IMG/VR virus record: IMGVR_UViG_3300046713_000202
Span: 1-44,650 of that record
DNA from: a virus
Direction: 5' to 3' (one strand)
Length of the DNA stretch: 44,650 nt
How positions within the stretch are numbered: the stretch's first letter is position 1; each line of letters opens with the position of its first letter. A program made the translations under genes and the position numbers. This document shows positions 63-23,110 of this stretch, piece after piece. The notes under the pieces are model-generated. The model made no database searches. It saw only the letters and a list, made by a program, of their open reading frames with translations, and had not been told where the DNA came from.

Positions 63-67
63 TGTTT

Positions 68-2245: not shown

Positions 2246-2429
2246 CCGCCAGCCCCCTACAGGAGCCTCTTCCCAGCCGGTAGTCGAGATGAACATCCCT
2301 CTTGCACATACGGTTGATGGCCTGATTGTCGACGCGACGACATTGCCTGTAGGTGATAAGCTGGTGGCGCACCCCTACCCAGCTAGTTTTGGCACAGATG
2401 GGTTCTTTCACGATCTGGAAATTTTATAG
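2235..2429 (+). CDS. Hypothetical protein (64 aa)
   Basis: A 64-residue protein overlapping the end of the small-terminase-like gene by 11 bp. It is Pro-rich at the N terminus and has a hydrophobic, probably beta-rich middle (LAHTVDGLIVDATTLP). No family recognised; its place in the head-gene cluster suggests a packaging or virion role. Confidence 0.5.
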   Translation: MPADRQPPTGASSQPVVEMNIPLAHTVDGLIVDATTLPVGDKLVAHPYPASFGTDGFFHDLEIL

Positions 2430-2432
2430 CCC

Positions 2433-2675: not shown

Positions 2676-2811
2676 CACCTGCGACGACACGGGCTTCTTC
2701 ATCGACGACTATGGAGAAGAGGTGATGTGTCCTGACTGTAAGGCCCGCTACAAGCTGGACGATGAACAACCCTTAACAATCGACGACTACAACGAACAGG
2801 AGACCCGATGA
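2659..2811 (+). CDS. Small zinc-ribbon protein (50 aa)
   Basis: A 50-residue acidic protein with CDTCDDTG at residues 5-12 and CPDC at about 24-27. The CxxCxxxG...CxxC layout is that of a DnaJ-type or rubredoxin-like zinc ribbon. ATG 2659 is chosen over an upstream start at 2614 because the conserved part begins with MKVNC. It overlaps both neighbours by a few bases. One of three small zinc-ribbon genes before the large terminase. Confidence 0.6.
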   Translation: MKVNCDTCDDTGFFIDDYGEEVMCPDCKARYKLDDEQPLTIDDYNEQETR

Positions 2812-3086
2812 GCTTCGTAATCAGCGACCCCTATCCGAACACCGTGATTCAGCCGACCGAGTTTGAAGTCAAGGTCGATGGTGGCACCCCGCAACCCAGC
2901 GTCCCAGCCGTAGACTCCAGTGGACAGCCATTCTTCAAGTTCGATCTCAGCACGTTGGGAGACGGCAAGCACCAGATCGAAGTCTCGGCGAAAGGTGGTG
3001 GAGGTGAGTCTGCGTTCAGTGCCCCTTTTGTTTTCGAGTTAGGCGTACCACCCGTACCCGCAAATCTTCGTCTGTCCGATACATAA
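2808..3086 (+). CDS. Ig/FN3-like beta-sandwich protein (92 aa)
   Basis: A 92-residue protein. The pattern of alternating strands, GDGKHQIEVSAKGGGGESAF, and a proline-rich exit (GVPPVPANLRL) resemble a single immunoglobulin/FN3-type domain. Such domains occur in capsid decoration and appendage proteins. Its ATG overlaps the preceding stop as ATGA (2808-2811). Confidence 0.55.
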   Translation: MSFVISDPYPNTVIQPTEFEVKVDGGTPQPSVPAVDSSGQPFFKFDLSTLGDGKHQIEVSAKGGGGESAFSAPFVFELGVPPVPANLRLSDT

Positions 3087-3096
3087 GCGGAGAGTC

Positions 3097-3303
3097 ATGA
3101 TTACCGCTGCTGCTAAAAGAGCTTTCCCGGTTGGCTGTTCGGATGGAGAGATACTGCACGACCTCACCCGTTGGGTGGAAACCGTGGTGGCTCACTATGC
3201 GATAACCAAGAGTGACAAGCCTCGGCATCAGGAGATGACTGTAGAGATTAAAACTGCCAATGGCAGATACATTGTCGTTACCATCCAGGAGGAAGGAGAC
3301 TAG
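3097..3303 (+). CDS. Hypothetical protein (68 aa)
   Basis: A 68-residue protein with an N-terminal helical part and a C-terminal beta hairpin (VEIKTANGRYIVVTIQEEGD). No family recognised. Downstream coupling: the next gene starts TTG immediately after its TAG. Confidence 0.5.
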   Translation: MITAAAKRAFPVGCSDGEILHDLTRWVETVVAHYAITKSDKPRHQEMTVEIKTANGRYIVVTIQEEGD

Positions 3304-3558
3304 TTGCAGATCGATTTCGTCCGTGAACTGGATAACCGAAAGGAAGAGATTGGCTATCGGGCCTTGCTGGAAGCCGTGTTTGCACCAATCAACGATTCAG
3401 AAACCCATTACACGCATGGATACTGGAGCATCGGAATGGCCAGGACCAAGGGCCTGATCCCGCACTGGGTAGGCTTCTGCAAGCAGTGCCAGCATTTCTT
3501 CCTGATTTGCGGACCTAAGCAATCTCGCTGTTATTGCATTGATCATAAGGAGCATTAG
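3304..3558 (+). CDS. Small Cys/His-rich protein, TTG start (84 aa)
   Basis: An 84-residue protein read from TTG directly after the previous stop. AGGAGG and GGAG lie just upstream, making this start reasonable. The C-terminal half has CKQC, a later C, CYC and IDHKEH, a likely zinc-binding knuckle. Function unknown; second of the zinc-ribbon genes in this block. Confidence 0.55.
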   Translation: MQIDFVRELDNRKEEIGYRALLEAVFAPINDSETHYTHGYWSIGMARTKGLIPHWVGFCKQCQHFFLICGPKQSRCYCIDHKEH

Positions 3559-3735
3559 ATGAAGACTCCCAAGTGGACCACCATGACCCCGGCTCATGTA
3601 GGGCCTAACTTCAGACATACCACTCCTCCGGTGAAGTCGCCCTCAAAGGTGCAAGGCCAGACCTGGGAAGGCCCGATGCCAGCGGTTGGCAAGGCGATTC
3701 CCCCGGTGAAGCAGCGTGTTCCCAAGCGAGGTTAA
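3559..3735 (+). CDS. Small basic proline-rich protein (58 aa)
   Basis: A 58-residue basic, Pro/Lys-rich, probably unstructured protein (starts MKTPKWTTMTPAHVGPNF, ends QRVPKRG). It begins 3 nt after the previous gene's stop region, with AAGGAG upstream. No family recognised. Confidence 0.5.
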   Translation: MKTPKWTTMTPAHVGPNFRHTTPPVKSPSKVQGQTWEGPMPAVGKAIPPVKQRVPKRG

Positions 3736-3736
3736 C

Positions 3737-3937
3737 GTGCCACTCAACAAGACATCCAGTAAACAGGCCTTCAAGGACAACATCGAGGCGGAAGTATCCG
3801 CTGGAAAGCCGCAGAAACAGGCCGTCGCCATCGCTTATGCCGTCCAGCGCAAAGCCAAGAGGCAGTACTTGAGCGAGGGCGGTCCAGTTCACCGGGCCAT
3901 GGGTGTTAAGCCAGGTAAGCCAGGAGACAAGTGTTGA
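3737..3937 (+). CDS. Small phage protein, KxxSKQAFxxNI...KPQKQAVAIAY type (66 aa)
   Basis: A 66-residue basic protein. Residues 1-45 match a pattern common in small proteins near phage terminase genes: an N terminus like PLNKTSSKQAF, then AGKPQKQAVAIAYAVQRKA. Its role is not known to me. The GTG at 3737 is chosen because it gives the typical N terminus; it follows the previous TAA by one base, with GAGG upstream. Confidence 0.7.
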   Translation: MPLNKTSSKQAFKDNIEAEVSAGKPQKQAVAIAYAVQRKAKRQYLSEGGPVHRAMGVKPGKPGDKC

Positions 3938-4122
3938 GCCAAGTGACCTACAAGAAAGGCTGGCTCAGGTGTAAGCACGGGGTCCTGCTGAAAAGAGGGA
4001 AGAAGACAGTGGGACTCTGTGTCAAGTGCGAACAATTTTCGGTTAGGCTCTACGATGCCAGCGGAAAAGTAACTGACATACCGGTATCATTAGCTGGAAT
4101 CTACGACCAGGGAGTCACCTAA
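3931..4122 (+). CDS. Small zinc-ribbon protein (63 aa)
   Basis: A protein of 62-63 residues with CKHG (about 14-17) and CVKC (about 31-34), a probable zinc ribbon. The start is GTG 3931 or TTG 3934; the latter overlaps the previous TGA as TTGA, and GGAG is positioned for either. It ends one base before the large terminase, so it may be coupled to it. Third zinc-ribbon gene of this block; role unknown. Confidence 0.55.
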   Translation: MLSQVTYKKGWLRCKHGVLLKRGKKTVGLCVKCEQFSVRLYDASGKVTDIPVSLAGIYDQGVT

Positions 4123-4123
4123 G

Positions 4124-5548
4124 GTGCCCCGCCCCGCGGTCTCCAGAAACAAGAACCCGGAACCTAGAGTCTACGAGTTCAACTATAAGGTGGGTCCCGT
4201 GGCCCAGGCCTTTCATCAGGACATTACCAGCCGCGTGAAGCTCTTGATTGGACCGTTTGGAACCGGTAAAACGACGAATGCCGCTTGTGACCTCATACTC
4301 TGTGCCTCCAGCCGCGTACTCCCAACCCAAGGAAAGGTCCGCTCGCGCTTCGCCGTCGTCCGCAACACCTACCCTCAGCTGAAAGACACCGTGATCCGAA
4401 CCTACCTAGACTGGTTCCCAGAAGGCATCTTCGGGCGGTACAACGTCACTGACAAGATCTATCGCCTGGTTAGGAAACAAGACGATGAAACCATTGAAGT
4501 CGAGCTACTCTTCAAGGCACTTGATTCACCTGAAGATGTGCGTGACCTGCTTTCCCTCGAACTTACCGGTGCCCATATTGATGAAGCTAGAGAAATCCCT
4601 CATGACGTGTTTAAAGGAGTGCTCGGACGCGTGGGGCGCTTTCCCTCACTTAAAGATACGGCTGGTAAAGACCCTTTCCTCACGCCACCTCAAGTCATCC
4701 TCACCACCAACTACCCGAACACCGAGCACTGGATCTACGACGACTTTGTCGCGCACCCGGTCCAAGGCTACACCATCTACAGGCAGACCCAGGAAGAGAA
4801 CCGGCATAACTTGCGCCCCGGTTACTACGAGGACCTCGAACGAGACTTCGCAAACCGACCGGACTTGCTGAAGACCCTGGTGAGAGGCGAGTGGGGAGTC
4901 ACGGTCAGAGGCCGTATGGTCTACCCGGAGTTCTCGCGGGACCTACACGTCGCAACTGCTCCGATCCAACCGGTCGACTCCCCCGTGATTCGAGGCTGGG
5001 ATAACACCGGCCTGTCACCGGCCTGCGTGATTACCCAGATGTCAAGCACCGGCCAGTGGCTGGTTCTCCACGAGTTTACCGCCGACGACATGGGTATATT
5101 GGACATGGGCGAGATGGTCCAGATCTGGTGTGCGGATACCTTCGGGAAGTACAGCGCCAGGTACAGAGACATCGGAGACCCATCAGGCACAGTCCGAGAC
5201 ACTGGAAAGATGTCGCCCAGAGACTACCTAGCCAAACTCGGTATCTTTGTCGAACCCGGCCAGCAACACTTCAAAGTGCGCAGGGAAGCCGTAGCCAGCC
5301 GCTTGATCAAGATGGTGAATAAGCAGCCTGCCATCAAGATCAGTCCCACCTGCAAGCGTCTCGTGGATGGTTTCGAAGGTGGCTACGCTTACCCCGAGAT
5401 CGGCAATAGTGGCGTCTTCAGGCCAGACCCGATGAAGAACGATTACAGTCATATTCATGATGCGCTCCAATACCCTGCGACTCGACTCTTCATTCACGAG
5501 CAGCCGGACGACAAGCCCTTACGAACGATGGACCATGCGTGTGTATAG
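4124..5548 (+). CDS. terL: Terminase large subunit
   Basis: The DNA-packaging motor, which cuts concatemers and pumps DNA through the portal. The 474 residues contain a Walker A motif GPFGTGKTT (43-51), a Walker B ending HIDEA (151-155, D153/E154), and an RNase H-like nuclease half whose probable metal-binding acidic residues are D293 (IRGWDNTG), D349 or D352 (YRDIGDPSG) and D446 (HIHDALQ). The length is typical. It starts at GTG, one base after the preceding stop. The P22-like tail genes downstream would be compatible with headful packaging, but no pac site was identified. Confidence 0.93.
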   Translation: MPRPAVSRNKNPEPRVYEFNYKVGPVAQAFHQDITSRVKLLIGPFGTGKTTNAACDLILCASSRVLPTQGKVRSRFAVVRNTYPQLKDTVIRTYLDWFPEGIFGRYNVTDKIYRLVRKQDDETIEVELLFKALDSPEDVRDLLSLELTGAHIDEAREIPHDVFKGVLGRVGRFPSLKDTAGKDPFLTPPQVILTTNYPNTEHWIYDDFVAHPVQGYTIYRQTQEENRHNLRPGYYEDLERDFANRPDLLKTLVRGEWGVTVRGRMVYPEFSRDLHVATAPIQPVDSPVIRGWDNTGLSPACVITQMSSTGQWLVLHEFTADDMGILDMGEMVQIWCADTFGKYSARYRDIGDPSGTVRDTGKMSPRDYLAKLGIFVEPGQQHFKVRREAVASRLIKMVNKQPAIKISPTCKRLVDGFEGGYAYPEIGNSGVFRPDPMKNDYSHIHDALQYPATRLFIHEQPDDKPLRTMDHACV

Positions 5549-5657
5549 CAGATTAATCCAAGATGTAATGGAAACTATCGCGATTATCTTACTGGCCATC
5601 ATGGGTGCACTGGGACTGCTTCTGGCTCTCGTGCATTTCTTCCCCAAGGCAGGTTAA
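5535..5657 (+). CDS. Small single-pass membrane protein (40 aa)
   Basis: A 40-residue protein overlapping the 3' end of the terminase gene by 14 bp. Residues 13-34 (METIAIILLAIMGALGLLLA and onward) form one strongly hydrophobic transmembrane helix, followed by a short tail. An internal ATG at 5568 is another possible start. Its place between terminase and portal is odd for a lysis protein. Function unknown. Confidence 0.5.
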   Translation: MRVYSRLIQDVMETIAIILLAIMGALGLLLALVHFFPKAG

Positions 5658-5666
5658 TTATTCAAG

Positions 5667-7697
5667 ATGCTAACTGACGCCCAGAAGACCTACCAAGCCA
5701 AGCAGCCGAACGGACCAGACACCGGTCTAGACCCTGTGCCTGACGATCCGAACCCGCACGCTGAACTGGTGGGCAAGTGTCTCGACTACCTGGGGCGTTA
5801 CAAGCCCGACATGGACTACTTGAACACCCTGCGCGAACGCCTCCACCGGGCCTACATGCAGGAACCCTACGGCAACGAGATGGAAGGCCGATCCAAGATC
5901 GTGATGTCTGACGTCGCGGACACGATCGAGTGGATCATGCCCTCGCTGATGCGCATCTTCTACGGGGGCACTGACGTCGTAAAGATCAGTGGCCAGGGTC
6001 CAGAAGACGAGTCAGCCAAGGTGGCTGGACCTCCAGATCCCCAGACTGGCTTACCGACCACGATCATCGTGAATCCCGCAGCCCTATTGAACGAGAAGGT
6101 GAACCACGACTTCCAGCGGGGCTTCAATGGCTACCTCCTTCTGTACGACTGGTTCAAAGACGCGATGCTCGACAAGATGGGGGTGGTGAAATACTGGTGG
6201 AAAAACAGCGTCCAGGAAACTCCAGTGGCTTATAAAGGCCTACAGGACCATGAACTCCAGAATGTCTTGGGAGCAACGCGCTTTCAGTTGCAAGACCACC
6301 AGACCATGGTCGGTGTAGACGGCTCGATGACTCACGACATCACAGGCGCAACCGTGAAGCAGATCTCCCACCCGATGGCCGAGGTCCTCCCACCCGAAGA
6401 ATTCATCTGGGACATCAAGGCGAAGACCGTGAAGCAGGCCGAGTTTGCCTGCCACCGGAAGCGGGTGCACAAGACCGAGCTGATCCAGAAATACGACATC
6501 CAAGCTGACGACCTAGACGCCTTCCCCCAGTCGAACGAGAGCTTCACAACGGATGTCCTGTTCTACGAGCGATTCAAAGACCTGGGGGGAACCTCCTTCT
6601 ACCAGGACGACGTAGACCCTGACTGGAAGATAGTTCACGAGTGTTACCTGAACGACTATTCGAGCGGCAAGAAAGTCCCCATGCAGGTCGTCCTCTGCGG
6701 CCCCAAGGCTCTCCACGTCGAAGTCAACTCGTATGGTCACCCTCCGTTCTGCGAGATTACACCAATCAGGGTGCCGCATCGTGCAATCGGGCGCAGCATT
6801 GCAGAGCTAGTGGAGGATCTGCAAAGGCTGAAGACCGCCTTCGTCCGCTTCATCGCCGACAACGTCTACTACCAGAACAACGCGCAGAAGGTCGTGAACC
6901 CATTCCGCATCAATATGGAGGATGCGCTCAACAACAACTACCCTGGCGGGATCTGGCGTACCAAGCAAGACGTCGATGCCACGACAGCCGTGTGGCCCAT
7001 CCCCGTAAGCCCTCTCCCAGCCCACGCCTTCAACATGGTCGACAAGATTGACAGCTGGAAAGAGAACCGGACGGGTGTGACCAAGTACAATCAGGGGACT
7101 GACGCCGACACCTTGAACAAGACGGCCACTGGAATCTCAGCCATCATGTCTGCCAGCCAGCAACGCGTCGAACTCATAGCTAGAAACTTCGCAGAAGGTG
7201 GGGTCAAAGACCTATTCCACGCCTTTGGCAAGATGAACATCGACTTCTTGCAGAAGCCGGAGGCCGTGCGCTTCAACCAAGACTGGCAATACATCAATCA
7301 AGACACGATTAACATTGATTTTGACGTGCAGATTGACGTGGCGTTGGGTACAGGGACAAGGGATCAGACCGTCCAGCACCTTTTGGCGATGTTAGACAGG
7401 ATGATTCAGCCCGCATTCATCCAAAGTGGCGTGTTTCTCCCAGAAAACCTGTACAACTTGCTGAAAACCGTGTTCGAGAACATGGGAATCAAGCAAACCG
7501 ACCAGTATTTGTCTCGTCCGCCCAGCCCGCAGGAGCTAGCGGCCCAGCAACAGGCTCAACAACAAGCTCAGATGGCCCAGATGCAGCAACAACAGGCTCA
7601 ACAGCAAGGAGGCCCAGGTGCAAACCCCCAGATGGCTCAGATGGCAGCGCCAGCCGGTCCCGGCGGACCCCAAAATGGTAGTGGCCCGGTCGGATGA
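5667..7697 (+). CDS. Portal (head-tail connector) protein
   Basis: A 676-residue protein at the expected position after the large terminase. The region around residues 60-100 (YGNEMEGRSKIVMSDVADTI, then EWIMPSLMRIFYGG) is the characteristic early motif of large podovirus-type portals. A later segment with TGVTKYNQGTDADTLNKTAT marks the conserved C-terminal core. Residues from about 620 are Gln/Ala/Gly-rich and low complexity, as is usual for portal tails. The dodecameric ring would be the DNA channel and prohead nucleation site. The family assignment is from motif memory and gene order. Confidence 0.88.
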   Translation: MLTDAQKTYQAKQPNGPDTGLDPVPDDPNPHAELVGKCLDYLGRYKPDMDYLNTLRERLHRAYMQEPYGNEMEGRSKIVMSDVADTIEWIMPSLMRIFYGGTDVVKISGQGPEDESAKVAGPPDPQTGLPTTIIVNPAALLNEKVNHDFQRGFNGYLLLYDWFKDAMLDKMGVVKYWWKNSVQETPVAYKGLQDHELQNVLGATRFQLQDHQTMVGVDGSMTHDITGATVKQISHPMAEVLPPEEFIWDIKAKTVKQAEFACHRKRVHKTELIQKYDIQADDLDAFPQSNESFTTDVLFYERFKDLGGTSFYQDDVDPDWKIVHECYLNDYSSGKKVPMQVVLCGPKALHVEVNSYGHPPFCEITPIRVPHRAIGRSIAELVEDLQRLKTAFVRFIADNVYYQNNAQKVVNPFRINMEDALNNNYPGGIWRTKQDVDATTAVWPIPVSPLPAHAFNMVDKIDSWKENRTGVTKYNQGTDADTLNKTATGISAIMSASQQRVELIARNFAEGGVKDLFHAFGKMNIDFLQKPEAVRFNQDWQYINQDTINIDFDVQIDVALGTGTRDQTVQHLLAMLDRMIQPAFIQSGVFLPENLYNLLKTVFENMGIKQTDQYLSRPPSPQELAAQQQAQQQAQMAQMQQQQAQQQGGPGANPQMAQMAAPAGPGGPQNGSGPVG

Positions 7698-7938
7698 AGC
7701 CGCCCGGTTTCTGCAATCAGAGTTGCTTGTGAACTTTTTCTCTAATACTGAGGAAGCCCTGGTGAATCGCTGGCGACAGACTCTACCGAACGATAGTGAC
7801 CAGCGCGAGCGCATCTACATCCAGATGCAACTGTTGGACAACTTCAAACTCTACATGGAAGCCACCATCGACGATGGCCGGATGGCTGCAACCATGCTCG
7901 ATCAACTGCTTACTGGCCAGCGAGACCAGGCCTACTAG
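7675..7938 (+). CDS. Hypothetical protein between portal and scaffold (87 aa)
   Basis: An 87-residue, mostly helical acidic protein. Its start overlaps the end of the portal gene by about 20 bp; GTG 7681 is an alternative. Small helical proteins of this size sit between portal and scaffold in many short-tailed phages, with unclear roles. The stop is followed by AGGAG and the scaffold gene. Confidence 0.6.
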   Translation: MVVARSDEAARFLQSELLVNFFSNTEEALVNRWRQTLPNDSDQRERIYIQMQLLDNFKLYMEATIDDGRMAATMLDQLLTGQRDQAY

Positions 7939-7948
7939 GAGAACCACG

Positions 7949-8938
7949 ATGGGAACATTTGAAGAGCAAGTCGCACGTTTGGCAGCAGGCGAAGTAGAAC
8001 CCGGAGAACCTGTGGTTGAACCCGTACCACCTCCTGGCCCAAACGCCCAAGTCGAAGGCGCAGCCGTTATTCCTGATCCACCCACAGCTGAGCCACCACA
8101 GTCGGCTGAACCGGTACAACAAGCAGAAGAATCTGCTGCACCAGAAACACCTGCTGTTGAAGAACCAGACCCGCTGCTCCAGGGCATCCCTGGCAACGTC
8201 CCCCTATCACCCGCTGTCACCAAGCGCATCAATAAAGCCATCTTCCAGCGTGAGGAAGCCCGCAGAGAAGCAGAATACTGGCGCAGAGTTGCGTCAGGCG
8301 AGACTCAGGCACCTAAGCCTGCCCAGCAACCTATACAGTCAGCCCCAGTCATCCAGTTTCCAAAGCCTCAGCCTAAGATAGAGGACTTCCAGAACGAAGC
8401 CGACCCTTACGCTGCCCTCGCCTTTGCCGCTGGCCGATACGAAGCTGAAAAGATCCAGCATGAAAACCAGACCCGAGCTTTCCAAGCCCAACAGCAGGCT
8501 CAACTCAACCAGCAAGAACAGCTGGTGCAATCCAAGATGGCCGAAGGTGAAGCCAAGTACCCGGACTTTTACGAAGCGACCGACGAACTGGGGAAGCAAG
8601 TGACCCCTGCCATGCGTGAAGCCCTCTTCGATAGTCCCCGCTTTGCCGACCTTGCCTACCACTTGAGCCACGAGCCTGCCGAAGTACAGCGCATCGCGAG
8701 ACTAACGCCTCTCGCCCAGGTGCGCGAACTCGGAAAGCTGGAAGATAAATTGGCGGTACAAACTGCGAACCCATCTGCCAAGCAGGTGGCTCGCCAGCCG
8801 ACTCCGGTACAGACTGCCGGTCAAGGTCTCCCAACCACCAAGCCCAACACTGCAAAGCTGTTTGAAGCCGCCAAAGCAGGCGGTCAGACGCGGGACTGGA
8901 TCAAGTATCTGGAGCAGACCGAGACCTTTCAGCCCTAA
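7949..8938 (+). CDS. Scaffolding protein (putative)
   Basis: A 329-residue protein located directly before the major capsid gene. It is rich in Glu, Pro, Ala and Gln, disordered at the N terminus (about 1-75), and strongly helical/coiled-coil in the middle (about 85-210, including a Gln-rich stretch). A basic, proline-rich C-terminal part could contact the capsid. This profile and position fit a capsid assembly scaffold. Start at ATG 7949 with AGGAG upstream. No sequence motif proves the role. Confidence 0.75.
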   Translation: MGTFEEQVARLAAGEVEPGEPVVEPVPPPGPNAQVEGAAVIPDPPTAEPPQSAEPVQQAEESAAPETPAVEEPDPLLQGIPGNVPLSPAVTKRINKAIFQREEARREAEYWRRVASGETQAPKPAQQPIQSAPVIQFPKPQPKIEDFQNEADPYAALAFAAGRYEAEKIQHENQTRAFQAQQQAQLNQQEQLVQSKMAEGEAKYPDFYEATDELGKQVTPAMREALFDSPRFADLAYHLSHEPAEVQRIARLTPLAQVRELGKLEDKLAVQTANPSAKQVARQPTPVQTAGQGLPTTKPNTAKLFEAAKAGGQTRDWIKYLEQTETFQP

Positions 8939-8963
8939 CCGCTAGCCGGCAAGAGGAACCCCG

Positions 8964-9890
8964 ATGGCCATAATCTCAGGTGGTTTTTCAAGTTACCTGG
9001 CTATAGGCAATCGCGAGGACCTGTCCGACATCATTCACAACATAGCTCCGGTTGAAAACTGGCTCGTCAGCAACTCTGGCGAGACCAAAGCCACCCAACG
9101 CTATCACGAATGGCAGACCGACACCCTCGCGACTCCCGCAGCCAACGCCCAATTCGAGGGCAATGACTATTCAGCAACTATTATTGTCCCCACTACCAGG
9201 CTTGGAAACTACACCCAAATCCTGGCAAAAACGTTTGCCATTACGCGAACGCAAGAAGTGACCGACAAAGCCGGTCGCAAGTCTGAACTAGCCTATCAAA
9301 CCGGGCTCAAGCTGAAAGAACTAGCCAACGACATCGAGTATGCCCTGATTGTCAACTCAGCGTCAGCCAGCGGTGCTACCGGTACCGCCCGCCAACTCAA
9401 AGGCGCACTCGGCTGGATCTCGACCAACAACACCACGGCTTCTGCCACCACCGTGTTCTTAACAGAAGCTTTGGTGCAAACCAACCTTCAGTTGATCTGG
9501 GCAGCAGGCGGAAAACCCCAGCACATTGTGATGGGCGCTGTCCAGAAGACCAAGTTTGACGCCTTCACTGGTAACAACACGCGCTTTCTGAACATGATGC
9601 CTGCTCAAGTGCAGTCCGCCGTCGAGGTCTACAAGTCTTCCTTCGGCAACGTGACCGCGCACTTGCACTTCATTTTAAACCAATCGACAGGCGCATCCAC
9701 CGGACCCTCAGGCAACGTGATCATCTTTGGAGACATGAGCTTGTGGCGCAAGGCGTACCTCCGCAAGGCCGAGCGTATCCCGTTAGCCGTAACAGGCAGT
9801 TCGCTCCGGTTCCTGATTGAGACAGAACTCACTCTGGAATGCGGCAACGAACTTGGTGCAGGAAAGGTCTCAGCTCTAGCACCAGCCTAA
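8964..9890 (+). CDS. Major capsid protein (DUF5309-like, HK97 fold)
   Basis: A 308-residue protein. Its central region (TRLGNYTQILAKTFAITRTQ, then KAGRKSELAYQTGLKLKELA and NDIEYALI) matches the pattern I associate with the DUF5309 group of HK97-fold capsid proteins, and the length fits. It follows the scaffold gene and has a ribosome-binding site (AGAGGAA) before ATG 8964. It would form the icosahedral shell. The basic E-loop/spine-helix signature is read by eye, not by search. Confidence 0.85.
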   Translation: MAIISGGFSSYLAIGNREDLSDIIHNIAPVENWLVSNSGETKATQRYHEWQTDTLATPAANAQFEGNDYSATIIVPTTRLGNYTQILAKTFAITRTQEVTDKAGRKSELAYQTGLKLKELANDIEYALIVNSASASGATGTARQLKGALGWISTNNTTASATTVFLTEALVQTNLQLIWAAGGKPQHIVMGAVQKTKFDAFTGNNTRFLNMMPAQVQSAVEVYKSSFGNVTAHLHFILNQSTGASTGPSGNVIIFGDMSLWRKAYLRKAERIPLAVTGSSLRFLIETELTLECGNELGAGKVSALAPA

Positions 9891-10337: not shown

Positions 10338-10652
10338 ATGCTGATTAAAACTAAAACACCTGGACTATTGATCTCTAACATGGACTACAAGACTGGGTGG
10401 CATCGGGGCAGCAGCCACGACACTCACGAAACTACCTATCTCGAAGATGTCAAGCCCATCCAGCAGAAAGTAGACATGCTGAAGCGAACTGGAGACAACG
10501 GCTTTACGGCAGATCGAACCATGCAGCAAATCGGCCTGATCCCCATTACCATCTGGGTAGCTCATCCCGAGTTCGTCCAAGACCCACGCTCGATCGACAA
10601 GTGGCTGAAATCTGAAGAAGGCGCTCCCTACCGAGTCGCCAAAGGAATCTAG
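10338..10652 (+). CDS. Small virion-cluster protein (104 aa)
   Basis: A 104-residue protein downstream of capsid genes. The C-terminal half (IPITIWVAHPEFVQDPRSID then KWLKSEEG and YRVAKG) resembles small conserved proteins found after capsid genes in podoviruses, in which a hPEh...D...hhKhL segment leads to a final R-h-x-x-G. Its biochemical role is unknown. Its TAG shares a base with the next GTG start. Confidence 0.55.
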   Translation: MLIKTKTPGLLISNMDYKTGWHRGSSHDTHETTYLEDVKPIQQKVDMLKRTGDNGFTADRTMQQIGLIPITIWVAHPEFVQDPRSIDKWLKSEEGAPYRVAKGI

Positions 10653-14729: not shown

Positions 14730-15182
14730 ATGGCATCTAGCTGGGGAACAAGTTGGGGAACAAGTTGGGCATCGAGTTGGGGAACGACAGCAACCGGTCC
14801 CTCTGCTCATTTGGCTGGAACAGGCGCTTTATCCGCAACTGCCGAAGTCCCCAATATCCAGAGCGTCTTGGCCTTACTTCCAGGAACAGGCAGTTTATCC
14901 GCTCATGGCTCTATTACTTCCACTTCCATGCTGGCCAGTCTCTATGGCATTGCTGGGTTGGATGTTTACAATGCTCAAGACCTTACTCGAACGAGCTTCG
15001 CGAACCTGGCTGGAACCTCCCGCTTTACCTCGCGCATTCTGGACCTTACTCCACCTATTGTTATTCCCAAGCCAGGCGCCGGCCAACCCTCGATTCATGC
15101 AGGCAGCCATCCAGTTCGTGGCCAATCGGTTCCAGTCAAAGGAAGTTCCAGGAGTATTCCAGGGAGGTCTGACCGCATATGA
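14730..15182 (+). CDS. Ser/Trp/Gly-rich virion protein (150 aa)
   Basis: A 150-residue low-complexity protein. The N terminus has a WGTSWGTSWASSWGTT repeat (residues 5-20), followed by GTGALSA/GTGSLSA units that also occur in the appendage protein at 23112-24695. The C terminus is basic and Ser/Pro-rich. All three plus-strand frames are open here. This frame is chosen because of those recognisable motifs, its start one base after the preceding stop, and its TGA overlapping the glycosyltransferase ATG as ATGA (15179-15182). Its Ser/Thr-rich makeup and tight coupling make it the best candidate target of the downstream modifying enzymes. Confidence 0.65.
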   Translation: MASSWGTSWGTSWASSWGTTATGPSAHLAGTGALSATAEVPNIQSVLALLPGTGSLSAHGSITSTSMLASLYGIAGLDVYNAQDLTRTSFANLAGTSRFTSRILDLTPPIVIPKPGAGQPSIHAGSHPVRGQSVPVKGSSRSIPGRSDRI

Positions 15183-15859
15183 TTGACCTGATCATGCCCA
15201 CACTGGGAAAGCCGCACCTCCTGAAAGCACTGGCCTCTCTGCGCTATCTGCCCTTCCCGGTGAAGCCGCACATTATCAGCCGGGGAGCCAGTTGGCCAGA
15301 AGCCATTAACCTGGGCTTAGACGAGAGTATTGGAGACGTTCTTCTGATGGACGATGACGTGGAACTACTGCCGGACACCTTCAAGGGCTTCGACCCGGAA
15401 GCGGCCGACGTAGTGGGCTTCAAGCTTTTATTTCCCGACGAGACCATCCAGCACGCCGGAGTCTTCGTCCATCTTCACGGAGTCGGCCACATCGGCTTCA
15501 AGCAACCAGCCAGTGAGTTCAACTACTCTCAGCGTGTCTGTGCCGTGACAGCCTCTCTCATGTACATCCATCGGGAAGTCATCGACGAGATAGGCCAAAT
15601 AACCCAGTGGGATGGCTACCAGTTTGAAGACACGGACTTCTGCTTCAGAGCCTTCAAGGCAGGCTTCACCCTGGTCACGACACCAGCTACCGCGATTCAC
15701 CACGAGAGCCAGACCAAGAAGCTGTTGCCAGACTTTGAGGCCAAGCTACAAACGAACATGAAGAAATTGGCCGATACCCACTTCAAGAACGAGTTGTTCT
15801 TACACAACCTGATGAGCTATCCGCGTCCCATCAAGGAGCCCCGTGCCGCCTCGAACTGA
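15179..15859 (+). CDS. Glycosyltransferase family 2 (GT-A)
   Basis: A 226-residue GT-A fold glycosyltransferase. It starts with the nucleotide-binding strand IDLIMPTLGK (2-11). It has a metal/nucleotide-sugar DDD at 58-60 (GDVLLMDDDVELL), a probable catalytic ED at 150-151 (YQFEDTDFCFRA), and HHES at 174-177 near the end, all typical for GT2. No transmembrane segment is visible, so it should act in the cytoplasm. Its start overlaps the upstream virion gene as ATGA and its end overlaps the radical SAM gene by 17 bp. The nearest logical role is modification of phage tail proteins. The donor sugar cannot be inferred. Confidence 0.88.
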   Translation: MIDLIMPTLGKPHLLKALASLRYLPFPVKPHIISRGASWPEAINLGLDESIGDVLLMDDDVELLPDTFKGFDPEAADVVGFKLLFPDETIQHAGVFVHLHGVGHIGFKQPASEFNYSQRVCAVTASLMYIHREVIDEIGQITQWDGYQFEDTDFCFRAFKAGFTLVTTPATAIHHESQTKKLLPDFEAKLQTNMKKLADTHFKNELFLHNLMSYPRPIKEPRAASN

Positions 15860-16904
15860 TTACCACCGATTCCAGAAGTTCAAGGTGCTCGCTCACGCCG
15901 AGAAGATTGAGGACATTGTGACCAACCGGATGCCTGCTCCTGTCGAGTGGATCATCTATCCCTCGAACATCTGCGGCTACCGCTGCCCGCACTGCATCAT
16001 GGCTGAAGAGCAGGCACTACACCACAAGCTATTGTCACCTGGAGCAATGCTCAAGATCCCGGTAGATGCCAAGCGCCTGGGAATACAGACGGTGGTCTTC
16101 TCCGGTGGCGGCGACCCATTGATCAATAAGCTCACGGTTCCTACGGCTTATCAACTGAAGCTGTCCGGAATAAGAACCGGAATCAACAACCAGGGCTATT
16201 TGCTCAACGACCCTACCGCCTTCGACTTCATCCGGTATTCCATTGACGCAGCAAACAAGCAGACTTACGAAGCAATTCACCGCTTTGACGGCTGGGACCG
16301 AGTCGTCCACAACATCCAGCGCCACCAACTGCTGCGAGAAGCAGGCGAGCAGATCGAGATGGGTTTAGCCTTCCTCATTACTCCTTCCAACTATACAGAG
16401 ACCAGCGACTTCTGCGAATGGGGACAGCAATTCAATCCCGACTTCATCCACATTCGCCCCGCCTTCCTAGACAGCCCCTACCTGGATAGCCAATACCCAG
16501 GTGGGGGTCAAGCCTTGAAGGAGGAGATCATTCCCTCTTTAGGCGAGGTAGGCAAGCGAATGGAATCTTTATTTCCCAATGTCTACTACCGGGTGGACAA
16601 GTTTGAAGGCTACTGGACCCCCAAGCTCTACGACAAGTGCCGAGCAACTCCCCTGATGGCCGTGACCTCTGGAGATGGCGCCTTCTTGATCTGTCAGGAC
16701 CGGGGGATCAAGGCTGGCGAGGAAAGCTACCGCTGGGGAGACTATAATGCTCAGACCTTTGACCAGATCTGGTGGTCACAGGAGCATCGAGACGCAATCA
16801 ACCAGATTGACTTATCCAGCTGCCCTCGCTGCGTAGAGAACGGCTACAACGAAATAATTCAAATGGGATTTATCGACGATCAGATGAAGATGGCACTGTT
16901 ATGA
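15843..16904 (+). CDS. Radical SAM protein with SPASM/Twitch-type C terminus
   Basis: A 353-residue radical SAM enzyme. The [4Fe-4S]/SAM motif is C44-x3-C48-x2-C51 (SNICGYRCPHC), followed by the SAM-binding glycine-rich strand VVFSGGGDPL and a later YSIDAANKQTYEAIH typical of the TIM barrel. C266, C284, C327 and C330 form a C-terminal set like that of SPASM/Twitch domains, which bind an auxiliary Fe-S cluster in peptide- and sugar-modifying members. The GTG start lies inside the GT2 gene, and its TGA overlaps the GT4 start. Substrate unknown: a tail peptide or an activated sugar are both possible. Confidence 0.87.
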   Translation: MPPRTDYHRFQKFKVLAHAEKIEDIVTNRMPAPVEWIIYPSNICGYRCPHCIMAEEQALHHKLLSPGAMLKIPVDAKRLGIQTVVFSGGGDPLINKLTVPTAYQLKLSGIRTGINNQGYLLNDPTAFDFIRYSIDAANKQTYEAIHRFDGWDRVVHNIQRHQLLREAGEQIEMGLAFLITPSNYTETSDFCEWGQQFNPDFIHIRPAFLDSPYLDSQYPGGGQALKEEIIPSLGEVGKRMESLFPNVYYRVDKFEGYWTPKLYDKCRATPLMAVTSGDGAFLICQDRGIKAGEESYRWGDYNAQTFDQIWWSQEHRDAINQIDLSSCPRCVENGYNEIIQMGFIDDQMKMALL

Positions 16905-18064
16905 TGGAACTAGCCTATATACACCCTGACGATGGCGGCTGTACCTACTACCGGGTGAACCTCCCTCTTGACACGATGAACGCCAAGGAAGACGCCCGTG
17001 TTCACCGCATCGTTCCCCAGGACAACCCTGAGCGCATCCAGAAGTTGCTGGAACCCTGCGACATGTTGGTCTTTCCACGCCCCTCAGACCCAACCATGGT
17101 GTCCAATATCGCCAAGCTCCACGAGAAGGGCAAGAAGGCCGTCGTAGACTTTGACGACAACCTCTGGGAAGTCTCTCCGTTAAGCCCACACTACGCCGAC
17201 TATGGCCTCCGCAACGTCCAGTACAAGCTGCCTGATGAGCCTATGTTAGACCTTTGGACAGACGGCAAGGGTTTTGACATTGAGATGAACAAGCTGCGAC
17301 TCCAGGCCGTTCGAGACACGATTGAAGCGGCTGACCTGGTGACCACCACGACAGAATACCTAGCCCAGATCTTTCGCCAGTGGAACTCGAAGGTAGCGGT
17401 TCTGCCTAACTGCCTGGACCTCAGCCTGTGGCAGAAGTTGCCTCTCCAGAAGCGCACTGACAGCATCCGACTCTACTGGTCAGGCGGTTCCAGCCACTAT
17501 GAAGACATTACCCTGCTCTCCGACGTCTTCCCCGTGATCTGTAAGAAGTATCCCGAAGTGAAGATCGTCATTGTCGGTCACCTGTTCAAAGGGCCATTCA
17601 AGGGGGTTCCAGAAGACCGGATCGAGTTTCACCAATGGAGCCATACTCTGGCCTACCCTTACAAGTCCGCTATCCTGGATGCCGATATCAGCCTGATCCC
17701 CTTGCAAGATACCGAGTTTAACCGTAGCAAGTCCGCCATCAAGTGGATCGAGCAGTCCGCCCTGTCCGTCCCTAGCGTGGTCTCCCACGTCACTCCTTAC
17801 AAAGAGATGGACAATAACGCCCACAATAATGCACTATTCGTCGAGAACCATCCTGACGCCTGGATCGAGGCTATTTCCCTCCTCATTGAAGATCCATTAC
17901 TTAGAATTCGGATTGGGTTGGAAGCCCGCCGCACTGTTGAACAGCATTACGACATCAACAAAGAGTACGTTCAATGGCTGCACGCTTACCAAGGGCTTCT
18001 CAACCGGAGACGCCCGATTTCTAAAGTAAAGGAGCTTCATCATGTCCAAAAACAACACCACTGA
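16901..18064 (+). CDS. Glycosyltransferase family 4 (GT-B)
   Basis: A 387-residue GT-B glycosyltransferase. The N-terminal half carries the acceptor-side DFDDNLWEVSPL motif (about 87-98) found in a GT4 subgroup. A mid-protein ADLVTTTTEYLA and VAVLPNCLDL mark the interdomain region. The donor-side half includes LYWSGGSSHYEDI, VKIVIVGHL and the nucleotide-sugar-contact region FNRSKSAIKWIEQSA. It overlaps the radical SAM gene by 4 bp and the next tail gene by 23 bp, so the GT2-rSAM-GT4 trio is one translational unit with structural genes on both sides. No membrane anchor is evident. Role: transfer of a second sugar, or elongation of a glycan, on a phage component (inference). Confidence 0.88.
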   Translation: MMELAYIHPDDGGCTYYRVNLPLDTMNAKEDARVHRIVPQDNPERIQKLLEPCDMLVFPRPSDPTMVSNIAKLHEKGKKAVVDFDDNLWEVSPLSPHYADYGLRNVQYKLPDEPMLDLWTDGKGFDIEMNKLRLQAVRDTIEAADLVTTTTEYLAQIFRQWNSKVAVLPNCLDLSLWQKLPLQKRTDSIRLYWSGGSSHYEDITLLSDVFPVICKKYPEVKIVIVGHLFKGPFKGVPEDRIEFHQWSHTLAYPYKSAILDADISLIPLQDTEFNRSKSAIKWIEQSALSVPSVVSHVTPYKEMDNNAHNNALFVENHPDAWIEAISLLIEDPLLRIRIGLEARRTVEQHYDINKEYVQWLHAYQGLLNRRRPISKVKELHHVQKQHH

Positions 18065-18509
18065 AACAGATTTCCTATCTGCTGCATTTAACGCCATCTG
18101 TCCCACCTGGATGGGAACCGGGATCACCGGTACTGCGTTTACCGGAGGGATCACCAATGTCTATGTAGCCCTCCATACAGCCTCAACTGCATCAATGGGA
18201 GAGAGTTCTTCTCAAACCACTTCTGAGACTGTCTATGCAGGTTATGCCCGAGTGGGAGTAGTCCGTACTAGCGCAGGCTGGACGGTCAGTTCACCAGGTG
18301 GAATCGGCACCGTAGTCAACCTCTCTGCCATTAACTTTCCACAATGCACTGGCACCTCAGCCCAGATTATATCTGCTTCAGTGGGCACATTAACTTCAGG
18401 AGCAGGCCAGATCCTATATCTAGGAGATCTATCCGGTGGCGGTCTAGCCGTAACCAACGGCGTGACCCCCTCGTTTGCAGCTGGAAACCTGTCGATCACT
18501 GAGGACTAA
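18042..18509 (+). CDS. Tail-fibre-associated structural protein (155 aa)
   Basis: A 155-residue protein matching a familiar phage structural pattern: ITNVYVALHTASTAS near 40-54, YAGYARVGVVRTSAGWTVS (65-83), INFPQCTGTSAQI, GAGQILYLGDLSGG, and a SFAAGNLSITED end. Proteins of this type are tail-fibre or receptor-binding adapter subunits in many phages. AAAGGAG precedes the start at 18042, which lies inside the GT4 gene, so the modifying cassette is physically embedded in tail genes. Confidence 0.75.
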   Translation: MSKNNTTETDFLSAAFNAICPTWMGTGITGTAFTGGITNVYVALHTASTASMGESSSQTTSETVYAGYARVGVVRTSAGWTVSSPGGIGTVVNLSAINFPQCTGTSAQIISASVGTLTSGAGQILYLGDLSGGGLAVTNGVTPSFAAGNLSITED

Positions 18510-18513: not shown

Positions 18514-18672
18514 ATGGCTGAACCACAGGAACAACCCAAGGTGGTAGAAGCTATGCGCGATTCTCCCACCTTCCATCCTCAAGGCACGGTTATGGAGATC
18601 CAGAATGCGGAAGGCCAGAAGATACGGTACGTTCTTACTCCTCTTGGTTGGGTTATGGTGCGGGAGTCTTAA
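18514..18672 (+). CDS. Small hypothetical protein (52 aa)
   Basis: A 52-residue protein (starts MAEPQEQPKVVEAMRD, ends LGWVMVRES), starting 4 bp after the previous stop. Its last 68 bp are shared, in another frame, with the signal-peptide-coding start of the 1501-residue tailspike gene. Function unknown. Confidence 0.55.
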   Translation: MAEPQEQPKVVEAMRDSPTFHPQGTVMEIQNAEGQKIRYVLTPLGWVMVRES

Positions 18673-21600
18673 GGCTGCGACCCATTATGTCTCGAAGGCC
18701 GGGGCTGACGCTCATGCCTGCTCAACCGTAGACAGTGCTGCGACCAACAAATTGACCGTAGCGGGTGGTCTTTCCTGCACAACTGCCGGAGATACCCTCG
18801 TGATCCACACCGGCACCTATGCTGAAACCATCGGCTTCTTTGGCACCAACATCCCGGCTGGCATCTCAGACCTACAGCGCACCATCGTTCAAGCAGCCAC
18901 AGGTGAAACCGTCACCTTAAACGAAGTGGACATCTACAGCCGCTCGTTCATTACCATTCAGGGAATCACCTTCAATGGCAACGTGTGTCGAATTGGCCGC
19001 AATGCAACCACTGACGCAGCGGCCACCTTTGTTACCTTCGACACCGTCACGGTTCAGAACTGGGTCGGTGGTGGGAGTGGAGCTGGAGCCATCATGCCCG
19101 GATTCCGTCAGGAAGGCATCTCGTCCAACCTCCTGATCAAGAATTGCAGTTCCCACAACAACGGGTCAACCAGCCTGGATCATGGCCTCTACATCTCCAC
19201 CCAGGACGTGACTGTCGATGGTGGCACGTTCTACAGTAACTCTGGCCACGGCATCCAGGTTTATACTTCAGGCCAGGCCACAGCTACCAATAACACCGTG
19301 ATCAAGAACACGATCACTCACGACAACGGCTCCTACGGAATCGGCCTCTACTCTGGCGACAATCTGAGAGCCTACAATAACATTGTCTACCATAACGGTC
19401 TCATTGTTGGCAGCACAGGTGGCCTCAGAGTCAGTGCCAGTTCCGGTTCACCAGCTACCAACCCCCTGATCTTCAACAACACCGTCTACAACAACACGGG
19501 CTATGGAATCCGTCTGGAAGTCGGCGCTTCCAACGTCAACATTCGCAACAACATCTCGTATAACAACTCTGGTGTAGAGATCTCGGATGCCACAGGAGGC
19601 AGTTTAGCCGCTTCCAACGTAGCCAATCGGAACAACCTGTGCGACACCTTGATCGCAACCCTGTGCGATGGCGGAAACCCACTGTTCGTCAATGCAGCTG
19701 CGAACAACTTTCAGCTTCAGACCACCTCGCCAGCAATCAATGCAGGAACCAGCTTGTCCACCGTCACGACCGACTTTGCCGGAGTTTCGAGACCCCAAGG
19801 TTCCGCTTATGACGAGGGAGCCTATGAATACGTGCCCGCGATTCCTCCAGCCACTGGCTGGACCCAGTTGACAAATACTTCTATCAGGCCTCTCTGCCCA
19901 GCCGGAATTCCCGGCAACTGCGACAAGGTGACACAAGCCTGGGCCAGCGGAGCCTTTGACACCCTCCGCAACCGGTTATTGATCATGGGCGGTGGTCACA
20001 GTGACTACGAAGGCAACGAGATCTATGCGCTAAATGTGACCCAACTGACCATGACCCGGATCACCAATCCAGGCACACCGACTGCCTCTGATGCCAGCTT
20101 TGCAGGTACGGACCCAGACACTAACTCAACTCATTGCCCAACCGCTCTCGTGGGGGGCACGCAGCCAAATAGCAACCACACCTATGACAGCATGGTCTAC
20201 ATGGCGAACGTCGATAAGATGTGGTACAAGCAGCAATCCAATGCTATCTGCGGCAATGGCTCCAGTAAAGGCTGGCAGTTCAACATGGCCACAAACGCCT
20301 GGGAGAACCATGCCAACTTGCTGATTCCTGGAGGAACCGGACCAGGCCTGATGGCCTCTTACGACCCCACCAGTGGCAAGGTTTTCTACCATAATAACTT
20401 CGATCTTCTGAGCTATACTCCAGGAACAGATGCCTACGTCAAGCTGACCAGCAATGGCACAGGCTTTGGCCGCCCAGACTGGATGACCTCAGTAATAGAC
20501 CCTACCAGAAACCGGTTCTACCTGATGGGTGGCGGCCAGGGAGCACTCTACTACGACCTAACCGCTCCTTATGCCCGACACAACATTAACCAGACGGGCG
20601 GAACAACCATCATTAACAGTAATGGTCCTGGATTGGCCTATGACTCAGCCATCGACCGTATTGTGGGCTGGACGGGCGGAGATGATGTTTTTCTTTATGA
20701 TGCCAATAGTAATAGTTGGACTAAGCAGACCTTTCCCAATGGTCCAGGAGCAGCCATTGTTCAGGGAACCTTTAAGCGCTGGGCCTATTCACCCGCAAGC
20801 GATGTCTTTGTGGTAGTCAACACCATCGATGCCAATGCCTATAGCCTGAGACTCAGCCCTCCGGTAGCGGATACGGTGGCCCCTTCGGTTCCAACCAATC
20901 TCGGAGCATCCACGATCTCAAGCGTTCAGATTAACCTGGCCTGGACCGCTTCGACTGACAATGTGGGTGTCGTCGGTTACCAGATCTATCGCAATGGCTC
21001 TCAGGTCGCCTTGTCTCCAACCAACAGCTATCAGGATACTGGCCTGACAGCAAGCACAACCTACACCTATACCGTGGCCGCCTACGACGCCTCCAGCAAC
21101 GTGTCTGCCCAGTCCACCAGCGCCTCAGCCACCACCGGAACCGTTGTCAACCCATCCAGTTCCAACTTCCAGATCAGTTCCACCGCTTCAGGCACGTTGC
21201 CCTTCACCGTCGGCCTGATCTTCAAGAAAGGCGATATCCCGAACTTCCCCGTGCTAGACATCGCAGAGTATCAAGTCGTGGTGAAGCGCCGCTGGAATGA
21301 CGGGTCTGTCAAGCACGCCATCGCTTCTGGTCAGACTGCCTTAACAGCCAATGTGCTGAAGACAATTACGGTGTCGAACTCAACCGCTGCTCCCACAGGA
21401 ACCGCTCTAACCTCAGCCGACATCACGGCAGCGAACCCGGTAGCCACTGTTCAACTAGGCGCTATCGGAACAGCCAACCTGGCAAGTCTATTTGCCACCC
21501 CGTTTAGAACCTGGCTAGCCGGTCCTGAGATGGTGGAATGCCATTACCGAACAACCATAGGAGGCAGTCCAGGTCTCAACGTCTGGTTCTACGTGAGGCT

Positions 21601-23110
21601 CTACAAGGCAGGTCGCATCTGGATCAGGGTCATCGTGGAGAACGGCTATCTCAACGTCTCCACTGACAACGGCAACACGATTCCCAACATTACCCAGACC
21701 TATCTTCCCAGCGTAGTCATCGGAGCAAACGGGGTCTTCAACAATGGCGGAGCCGCTCTCACTCATTACGGCTTCACCCGTTGGACGGTAGAAGGCTGGA
21801 CGAGTGGCAGCTTCCCAGACGTAATCCCCAAGCACAACAGCCAGTACCTGATGGACACGAAGCTGGTGCCCAACTACTGGAAGCGCAGTCCCAGTGATGC
21901 CAAACTAAACAGCCTCCACCAGACCTATGTTCAGATGTCGAATGCCGACCTGGATCAGAACATGCCTGGGCCAGGATTCCAGAATGACATCGGTCTATTG
22001 CCTCTTTGGGACGCTCTCTACGTGACCTCTACAGACCCCAGGGCCTACTACTCGATGGAAGCCAACAGTTCCTCGATGAACAGTTACCCCATTGTGTGGC
22101 GTGACTCTGGCACCCAACTACCCGCCTCTCCAGCCAACTGGCCAAACTATGCCATTGGAGGAGGGGCGTATGCCTGGGGAGCAGGCCCACTAACCTGGTC
22201 GATGACCCATGAACCCTCGGAAGGCTACACCGCCTACCTACTTACAGGAGACTACTGGCATTACGAAACGATGCTGTTTAACGCCTCGATGAATTACCTG
22301 GCTAGAAACAACGCGATTGGTTCAGGTTTGACCAGGATATTGACGAGTGAAACCCGAGGCAACGCCTGGATCATGCGGACTAACTCTCAACTGGCTGCCG
22401 TTTGTCCTACAGGGGATGCTGTCTGTACCGACTACCAGACCCTCTTACAGAACAACGTCACCTATTGGAAGAACATCTCGACCACACTCACTGCTCCAGG
22501 AATCGGCAGTGTCTACGAATACGGATTCGGTTATGCGGGCGGTGCAGGCGTGATTGCTCCCTGGCAGCAGGAGTTCTGGGACATGTCGATGGGAATGGGT
22601 TCTGACATCGAGCCATTGACCGACATGACGGTTTACAACCAGCTGCGCGACTATCTCTACAAGTTTCCTGTCGGCATCCTGGGCGATCAGACCGGGTTCT
22701 ACTTCACTTACGGATCGATCTATAACCTGCAGATCGGGGCTACCAACTCTACTGACCCGCACAACTTCTACACCACCTGGAAACAGTGCTGGGATGGCAG
22801 CGTGGCTCTCAGCCTGATTGTTTCCCCAGTATTCGATAACACGTTGAAAGGCGACTCAGGCGGATTACCAGCCAATGCCTCAACCGGCTACTGGGGAAAC
22901 CTGATGCCTGCGATTGCTTACGCCGTAGACCATGGAGCCACCGGAGCCTCAGCCGCGTGGCTCAGATTAACCGGAGCTTCTAACTGGTCCGTAGTCGGCT
23001 CTAGCGGCTTTGACGACATCCCCATCTGGGGAATCGTGCCGAGAACCGTGATTCAAGTACCTCCGCCGACACCGCCTGCACCACCCACAGGCTTGATCAA
23101 GATCAACTGA
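18605..23110 (+). CDS. Giant multidomain tailspike / depolymerase-like protein with signal peptide
   Basis: 1501 residues. Residues 1-25 look like a Sec signal peptide: basic RKARR, hydrophobic FLLLLVGLW, then a GSLKAA cleavage region. ATG 18605 is backed by GGAG at 18595-18598. About 26-410 is a right-handed beta-helix with NxxxNN ladders (pectate-lyase-like). About 415-755 has six propeller-like repeats around LLIMGGGHSDY, FYLMGGGQGA and IVGWTGGDD (Kelch-like). About 757-850 is an FN3 domain. About 855-1490 resembles PcRGLX/YetA-type polysaccharide lyases: a beta RIFT-like part (YQVVVKRRWNDGSVKHAIAS) then a helical toroid (MTHEPSEGYTAYLLTGDYWH). It probably binds or degrades host surface polysaccharide. 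The signal peptide is unusual for a virion protein and suggests capture of a secreted bacterial protein. Confidence 0.8.
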   Translation: MRKARRYGTFLLLLVGLWCGSLKAATHYVSKAGADAHACSTVDSAATNKLTVAGGLSCTTAGDTLVIHTGTYAETIGFFGTNIPAGISDLQRTIVQAATGETVTLNEVDIYSRSFITIQGITFNGNVCRIGRNATTDAAATFVTFDTVTVQNWVGGGSGAGAIMPGFRQEGISSNLLIKNCSSHNNGSTSLDHGLYISTQDVTVDGGTFYSNSGHGIQVYTSGQATATNNTVIKNTITHDNGSYGIGLYSGDNLRAYNNIVYHNGLIVGSTGGLRVSASSGSPATNPLIFNNTVYNNTGYGIRLEVGASNVNIRNNISYNNSGVEISDATGGSLAASNVANRNNLCDTLIATLCDGGNPLFVNAAANNFQLQTTSPAINAGTSLSTVTTDFAGVSRPQGSAYDEGAYEYVPAIPPATGWTQLTNTSIRPLCPAGIPGNCDKVTQAWASGAFDTLRNRLLIMGGGHSDYEGNEIYALNVTQLTMTRITNPGTPTASDASFAGTDPDTNSTHCPTALVGGTQPNSNHTYDSMVYMANVDKMWYKQQSNAICGNGSSKGWQFNMATNAWENHANLLIPGGTGPGLMASYDPTSGKVFYHNNFDLLSYTPGTDAYVKLTSNGTGFGRPDWMTSVIDPTRNRFYLMGGGQGALYYDLTAPYARHNINQTGGTTIINSNGPGLAYDSAIDRIVGWTGGDDVFLYDANSNSWTKQTFPNGPGAAIVQGTFKRWAYSPASDVFVVVNTIDANAYSLRLSPPVADTVAPSVPTNLGASTISSVQINLAWTASTDNVGVVGYQIYRNGSQVALSPTNSYQDTGLTASTTYTYTVAAYDASSNVSAQSTSASATTGTVVNPSSSNFQISSTASGTLPFTVGLIFKKGDIPNFPVLDIAEYQVVVKRRWNDGSVKHAIASGQTALTANVLKTITVSNSTAAPTGTALTSADITAANPVATVQLGAIGTANLASLFATPFRTWLAGPEMVECHYRTTIGGSPGLNVWFYVRLYKAGRIWIRVIVENGYLNVSTDNGNTIPNITQTYLPSVVIGANGVFNNGGAALTHYGFTRWTVEGWTSGSFPDVIPKHNSQYLMDTKLVPNYWKRSPSDAKLNSLHQTYVQMSNADLDQNMPGPGFQNDIGLLPLWDALYVTSTDPRAYYSMEANSSSMNSYPIVWRDSGTQLPASPANWPNYAIGGGAYAWGAGPLTWSMTHEPSEGYTAYLLTGDYWHYETMLFNASMNYLARNNAIGSGLTRILTSETRGNAWIMRTNSQLAAVCPTGDAVCTDYQTLLQNNVTYWKNISTTLTAPGIGSVYEYGFGYAGGAGVIAPWQQEFWDMSMGMGSDIEPLTDMTVYNQLRDYLYKFPVGILGDQTGFYFTYGSIYNLQIGATNSTDPHNFYTTWKQCWDGSVALSLIVSPVFDNTLKGDSGGLPANASTGYWGNLMPAIAYAVDHGATGASAAWLRLTGASNWSVVGSSGFDDIPIWGIVPRTVIQVPPPTPPAPPTGLIKIN

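Follow-up and report, generated by a model that had tools for sequence, protein, structure and literature searches.

A conserved glycosyltransferase and radical SAM gene cassette in the virion-gene operon of uncultured phages and its possible role in virion glycosylation

A set of three genes, coding for a family 2 glycosyltransferase (GT2), a radical SAM enzyme (rSAM) and a family 4 glycosyltransferase (GT4), is a conserved and translationally coupled unit within the virion-gene operon of phages. It was analyzed in a virus record from IMG/VR, 44,650 bases long, which was taken at its whole length and is here called the window, and a search for the same gene order elsewhere found it in five further uncultured phages (six with the window). 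The cassette is tied to the virion genes in general, most of all to the neighbourhood of the capsid gene, and not to the tail fibres. We give an even chance to the reading that it is a virion-glycosylation module placed among the structural genes, in which the radical enzyme would edit a sugar and not a peptide.

Arrangement of the cassette in the window

The three genes follow each other in the order GT2, rSAM and GT4 on the + strand (Table 1). The open reading frames lie exactly where the preliminary description had placed them, and the overlaps are those it had given: 4 bp (ATGA) between the Ser/Thr-rich gene and GT2, 17 bp between GT2 and rSAM, 4 bp between rSAM and GT4, and 23 bp between GT4 and the gene downstream. 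The downstream gene had been called fibre-associated, and its product indeed matches PF23140 (Podophage GP4 fiber I protein gp80) with 40.8 bits against a cut-off of 27. The upstream gene had been called a Ser/Trp/Gly-rich virion gene; it is a real gene, as its dN/dS indicates, and the virion role found no support, the product having no match in the family searches. The terminase, portal, scaffold and capsid genes occupy 4124-9890. Codon usage was checked for recent insertion; rSAM and GT4 are like the structural genes and GT2 deviates somewhat (0.43 against 0.25-0.30). The three enzymes are predicted to be soluble, with no membrane segment and a maximum 19-residue hydrophobic mean of 0.92-1.11.

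Table 1. Position of the cassette and of the related features in the window
Feature	Position	Strand	Remarks
Major capsid protein (MCP)	8964..9890	+	phrog_1328, E 6.8e-79
Small gene 3' of the capsid gene	10338..10652	+	Alignment with relatives and overlap table
Ser/Thr-rich gene, SWGTSWGTS start	14730..15182	+	ORF; dN/dS 0.17 against contig L002; Ser+Thr 27%
GT2 glycosyltransferase	15179..15859	+	226 aa; PF13632 above cut-off
Radical SAM enzyme, twitch-type auxiliary cysteines	15843..16904	+	353 aa, GTG start; PF04055 above cut-off
GT4-type glycosyltransferase	16901..18064	+	387 aa; PF00534, PF13692, phrog_7162
Gp80-type fibre gene	18042..18509	+	PF23140, E 3.4e-10

Two other features of the window were recorded. 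A spike-like protein of 1501 aa, with stretches of right-handed beta-helix, kelch-like and fibronectin III type, is encoded at 18605-23110; it has a signal-peptide-like start (MRKARRYGTFLLLLVGLWCGSLKA), which is odd for a phage virion protein, and a start of this kind is also seen at 11094-13505 of contig L091. The two ends of the window (1-35 and 44616-44650) share the 15-mer ATGAAAAATAGGTAT with 8-9 G directly after it. This sequence is seen nowhere else in the window and is missing from the terminal 1.5 kb on either side of the near-twin contig L002; it could be a true repeat or an end of the assembly.

Recurrence and genomic position in related phages

The whole arrangement is retained in L002, whose rSAM is 95% identical to that of the window. 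The dN/dS between the two is 0.085 for GT2, 0.050 for rSAM and 0.053 for GT4, as compared with 0.095 for the capsid gene and 0.150 for the large spike-like gene of the same pair, and all three cassette genes are under strong purifying selection. Because the near-twin keeps the three genes at such low values and the order is repeated in four other contigs, L164, L165, L091 and L007 (rSAM 64%, 61%, 62% and 45% identical to the window's), the arrangement is far from a chance one. In L091 a methyltransferase lies between GT2 and rSAM, and in L007 GT4 is cut off at the contig end. The overlap of rSAM and GT4 is 4 bp (ATGA) in 6/6 phages.

The cassette of these four contigs comes directly after the major capsid gene (43-55% identical to the window MCP) and one small gene (about 105-127 aa) with an overlap of 1-4 bp with GT2; this gene is a relative of the small gene standing 3' of the capsid gene in the window. 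A GT2-methyltransferase-rSAM order is found upstream of terminase and portal in L156, and in the sister clade (L169, L170, L010) GT2 and rSAM lie downstream of the portal and upstream of the head-protease region, PHROG bearing out the portal assignment in L170 and L010 and the protease assignment in L169 and L170. Placement among fibre genes is seen only in the window and L002, and the ATGA coupling of the SWGTSWGTS gene to GT2 is limited to the same pair. Where relatives of the capsid gene stand without the cassette, the post-capsid slot is filled by tail, fibre or unnamed genes only.

A strict association with tail fibres was thus rejected, the relatives having the trio by the MCP, or GT2-methyltransferase-rSAM before terminase and portal. 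The preliminary description had proposed a trio for modifying tail proteins; its coupled unit in a virion-gene operon was recovered in six phages, and its link to fibres or other appendages gave way to capsid, portal and protease contexts, so that nothing singles out tail proteins as the target. The MCP of the window is a candidate acceptor.

Some further loci were noted during the survey. The gene of about 300 aa after GT4 in L164, L165 and L091 was considered as a gp4-like adaptor and got no support from hhalign, PHROG or PDB. The capsid ORF of 548 aa in L165 was probably called too long, and its length was not taken as a sign of decoration. Contig L088 (3909-9748) holds a probable capsid gene, a 123-aa gene, GT2, methyltransferase, NodB-like gene and window-type GT4 without rSAM, which is a related cassette minus the radical step. 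The 103-kb phage contig L171 encodes (2-8984) a collagen-like (GVQGPQGDIGID) repeat protein of at least 958 aa about 5 kb upstream of its clade rSAM, and this protein is possibly a glycosylated fibre.

Radical SAM enzyme and its predicted fold

The window enzyme is assigned by sequence to the radical SAM superfamily. It matches PF04055 with 33.4 bits against a cut-off of 29.5, and both its CX3CX2C cluster (C44-C48-C51) and its GGGDP form of the GGE/GGD-P motif are invariant or nearly so across 64 homologues. The auxiliary cysteines C266, C284, C327 and C330, already listed in the preliminary description, are present and widely kept; C327 and C330, like C44, C48 and C51, are invariant, and C266 and C284 are retained in 61 and 62 of the 64 homologues respectively. 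The SPASM label given to them was replaced. SPASM is a seven-cysteine motif with two auxiliary clusters and twitch is its truncated form with one (PMC6231123); since the window enzyme has four auxiliary cysteines and PF13186 stays under its cut-off (15.5 against 21.5 bits), the set has the twitch pattern, with one predicted cluster.

The structure model of rSAM (pLDDT 92.7) is matched best by DesII (Z 24.1, rmsd 4.7, 332 residues), followed by BlsE (Z 22.8), SkfB (22.6) and SuiB (22.1), and Foldseek likewise ranks DesII and BlsE at the top. DesII has a role in TDP-desosamine biosynthesis (PMC11434129) and the substrate of BlsE is cytosylglucuronic acid (PMC3715490); both are about 15% identical to the window enzyme and belong to bacterial antibiotic pathways. 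Full-length fold matches extend to the twitch enzymes SkfB and BtrN. In the radical SAM dehydrogenase BtrN the twitch domain has four cysteines that hold a single auxiliary cluster (PMC6231123), as predicted here, but BtrN is more distant in fold (Z 16.0, 12% identity) and its substrate is an aminocyclitol. In the model the core begins at residue ~33, a single helix preceding the barrel, and no RRE-type N-terminal peptide-binding domain is present; a RiPP radical SAM maturase with RRE was therefore rejected. The predicted fold leans to a sugar substrate, without proving it because the peptide-modifying SkfB and SuiB score close, and on the model radical editing of a sugar appears likelier than radical modification of the protein itself.

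Glycosyltransferases

Each of the three genes had been given its family name in the preliminary description, and each Pfam family was found above its cut-off. The GT2 product is classed as a glycosyltransferase family 2 member by its match to PF13632 (30.9 bits, cut-off 27), by the motifs DDD (58-60) and ED (150-151), conserved in an alignment of 17 homologues, and by a model (pLDDT 91.8) with GT-A fold. The top matches of this model are polypeptide GalNAc-transferases (Z 18.1, rmsd 3.3, 210 residues), with WrtF and GlfT2 ranking below; the match is suggestive only, because GT-A folds resemble each other. The GT4 product falls in family 4 by the Pfam criterion (PF00534, 38.9 bits, cut-off 26.4; PF13692, 36.5 bits, cut-off 27) and matches the glycosyltransferase family phrog_7162 (E 6e-44). 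In its classical E-x7-E region E284 is conserved without a Glu eight residues before, and the pattern FN..KS..K..E is conserved instead.

Phylogeny and cellular relatives

A phylogenetic tree of 63 rSAM proteins places the window enzyme in a clade of 15 made up of viral members only (support 100/100), within which the subclade of the trio phages has five members (support 100/99); virus and cell labels are interleaved over the whole tree. A profile of the window GT2 was found in 14/17 records tested, including 13/15 clade members. Among 83 broader viral rSAM loci, counts that are not independent because the set includes near-copies, the GT2 family occurs in 6, all of the window's clade, and is lacking in 77. 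The GT2 family is specifically paired with this rSAM clade.

It had been held that finding the trio mainly in bacterial polysaccharide loci, with no tail genes nearby, would speak against the proposed modification of tail proteins. No cellular trio was found in scans of cellular genome contigs, although one may exist since these scans are pattern-based; the close-clade rSAM patterns gave no relative there, and broad patterns gave only distant ones, about 20-28% identical. The genes beside the cellular rSAM relatives are GT2, GT4, GT9 and epimerase genes, that is, glycan loci. Plasmids gave no nucleotide match, and no description of the trio was found in the open-access literature.

Other viral rSAM relatives have glycosyltransferases, sugar dehydratases or epimerases, and TPP enzymes nearby, each in a minority. 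A distant relative is flanked by split halves of a thiamine-diphosphate enzyme (E1/transketolase families) in L072 (6375-9892), L076 (6791-9896) and L005 (5445-7663), from freshwater and huge phages, and L072 and L076 also have a possible Anp1-like glycosyltransferase there. TAGT-family glycosyltransferases (TAGT being the TET-associated GT family) stand beside distant relatives in L006 (MT835491) and L070, where TET/JBP was not found in a search without positive control.

Proposed function and alternatives

The proposed mechanism would run in three steps. In the first, GT2 would put a first sugar, taken from a host nucleotide sugar, on a newly made virion protein, putatively a capsid or fibre-region protein. 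In the second, rSAM would make a 5'-deoxyadenosyl radical and take hydrogen from this sugar or from its nucleotide-linked precursor, so that the sugar would be oxidised, epimerised or deoxygenated; the twitch cluster may serve in electron transfer, as proposed for BtrN. In the third, GT4 would extend the edited sugar. The acceptor, the sugar, the radical reaction, the order of steps and the benefit to the phage are all putative. Virion glycosylation fits the soluble enzymes, the structural-gene context, the glycan-tailoring neighbours and the sugar-type folds: the trio is coupled in six phages, has no membrane segments, and takes up sugar-tailoring neighbours in its variants (a methyltransferase in L091 and L156; PhyH, methyltransferase and NodB-like deacetylase in MW202801), and its rSAM is specifically paired with this GT2 and has cellular relatives in glycosyltransferase loci, sugar enzymes as nearest solved folds and no RRE-like domain. 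Against it stand SkfB and SuiB, which lie within 2 Z units of DesII, and the want of a constant neighbour to name the acceptor.

The main rival, which we consider unlikely, is that the trio makes or edits an O-antigen, LPS or capsule sugar of the host during infection and so changes receptors or excludes competing phages. The glycosyltransferase-rich regions with rSAM cassettes of pelagimyophages have been interpreted as modifying the host O-chain (PMC7029224), which also weighs against a virion target, and the cellular relatives of rSAM lie in glycan loci. Yet neither a membrane protein nor a flippase or GtrB-like gene is part of the trio, and its coupling to late virion genes, seen in many phages, is late for a surface change. 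Serotype-converting gtr cassettes have a membrane flippase and membrane-bound glycosyltransferases, and the trio, with no hydrophobic segment, does not resemble them.

It is less probable again that rSAM alters an amino-acid residue in a virion protein in the manner of a RiPP maturase, while the two transferases glycosylate the same protein independently. The nearness of SkfB and SuiB to DesII in fold, the twitch domain that SkfB also has (PMC6231123) and the Ser/Thr/Trp-rich proteins nearby would agree with this, against which the enzyme has a single helix in place of an RRE-type domain, no constant peptide gene goes with the cassette, and rSAM has a specific GT2 as its partner and its relatives in sugar loci. 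An imported sugar cassette, carried in a hypervariable slot without specific virion role, is quite improbable: the slot after the MCP is variable and holds only tail or fibre genes in cassette-less relatives, but the strong purifying selection, the recurrence across divergent phages with conserved overlaps and the coupling to the small gene after the MCP all argue otherwise.

The usual DNA hypermodification employs a thymidylate synthase-family base hydroxymethylase or a C5 methylase. That modified bases in the phage DNA are the target of the enzymes is very improbable, for although GT2 has a weak match to TAGT (19.8 bits, under the cut-off of 27.5) and TAGT neighbours occur beside some distant viral rSAM relatives, the cassette lies in the structural and not the replication module and the trio phages, of which some records may be incomplete, gave neither the thymidylate synthase/hydroxymethylase family nor a C5 methylase in searches whose controls worked (TET/JBP dioxygenase gave no match either, its positive control being also silent).

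Relation to known systems

Glycans are documented on capsid and tail-tube proteins of mycobacteriophages (PMC12619734, PMC11256854). As in the window, the glycosyltransferases of Che8 and Rita are phage-encoded (Freeman et al. 2023, cited in PMC12619734 and PMC11256854), and glycans on capsid and tail tube are the function proposed here; no radical SAM enzyme is reported there. In the cluster F1 phage Maravista the glycosyltransferase genes are near the 3' end of the genome and not by the capsid gene as in the trio relatives. The Manatee Spring podovirus ctQWt234 (MW202801) has a similar set between its capsid and stabilisation genes, with rSAM, GT2 and a homologous GT4; its rSAM, however, is 23% identical to the window's, lies outside its clade and has SPASM above the cut-off, and PhyH, methyltransferase and NodB-like deacetylase genes are added, in a post-capsid slot. 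The hypervariable region of pelagimyophages (PMC7029224) carries phage rSAM and glycosyltransferase genes near tail-fibre genes, like the window, but it is large and variable and has no fixed trio. To phage virion (or surface) glycosylation as known so far, the cassette would add a radical SAM partner.

Value of the findings

Few documented systems of virion glycosylation in phages were found in the literature. It is possible, at a little less than even chance, that this phage lineage has its own radical SAM sugar editor, placed between two glycosyltransferases and coupled to the capsid gene, which would give particles with a radical-modified, non-host glycan, and that the post-capsid slot is a recurrent site for the chemistry of the virion coat, where one tailoring enzyme (rSAM, methyltransferase, deacetylase or dioxygenase) can take the place of another. 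The slot is a place to look for such modules. If the reading is true, radical chemistry on a sugar would widen the known chemistry of virus coats, the cassette would be a candidate route for phages to alter their own surface, and these phages would be a source of sugar-editing radical enzymes with defined partner glycosyltransferases.
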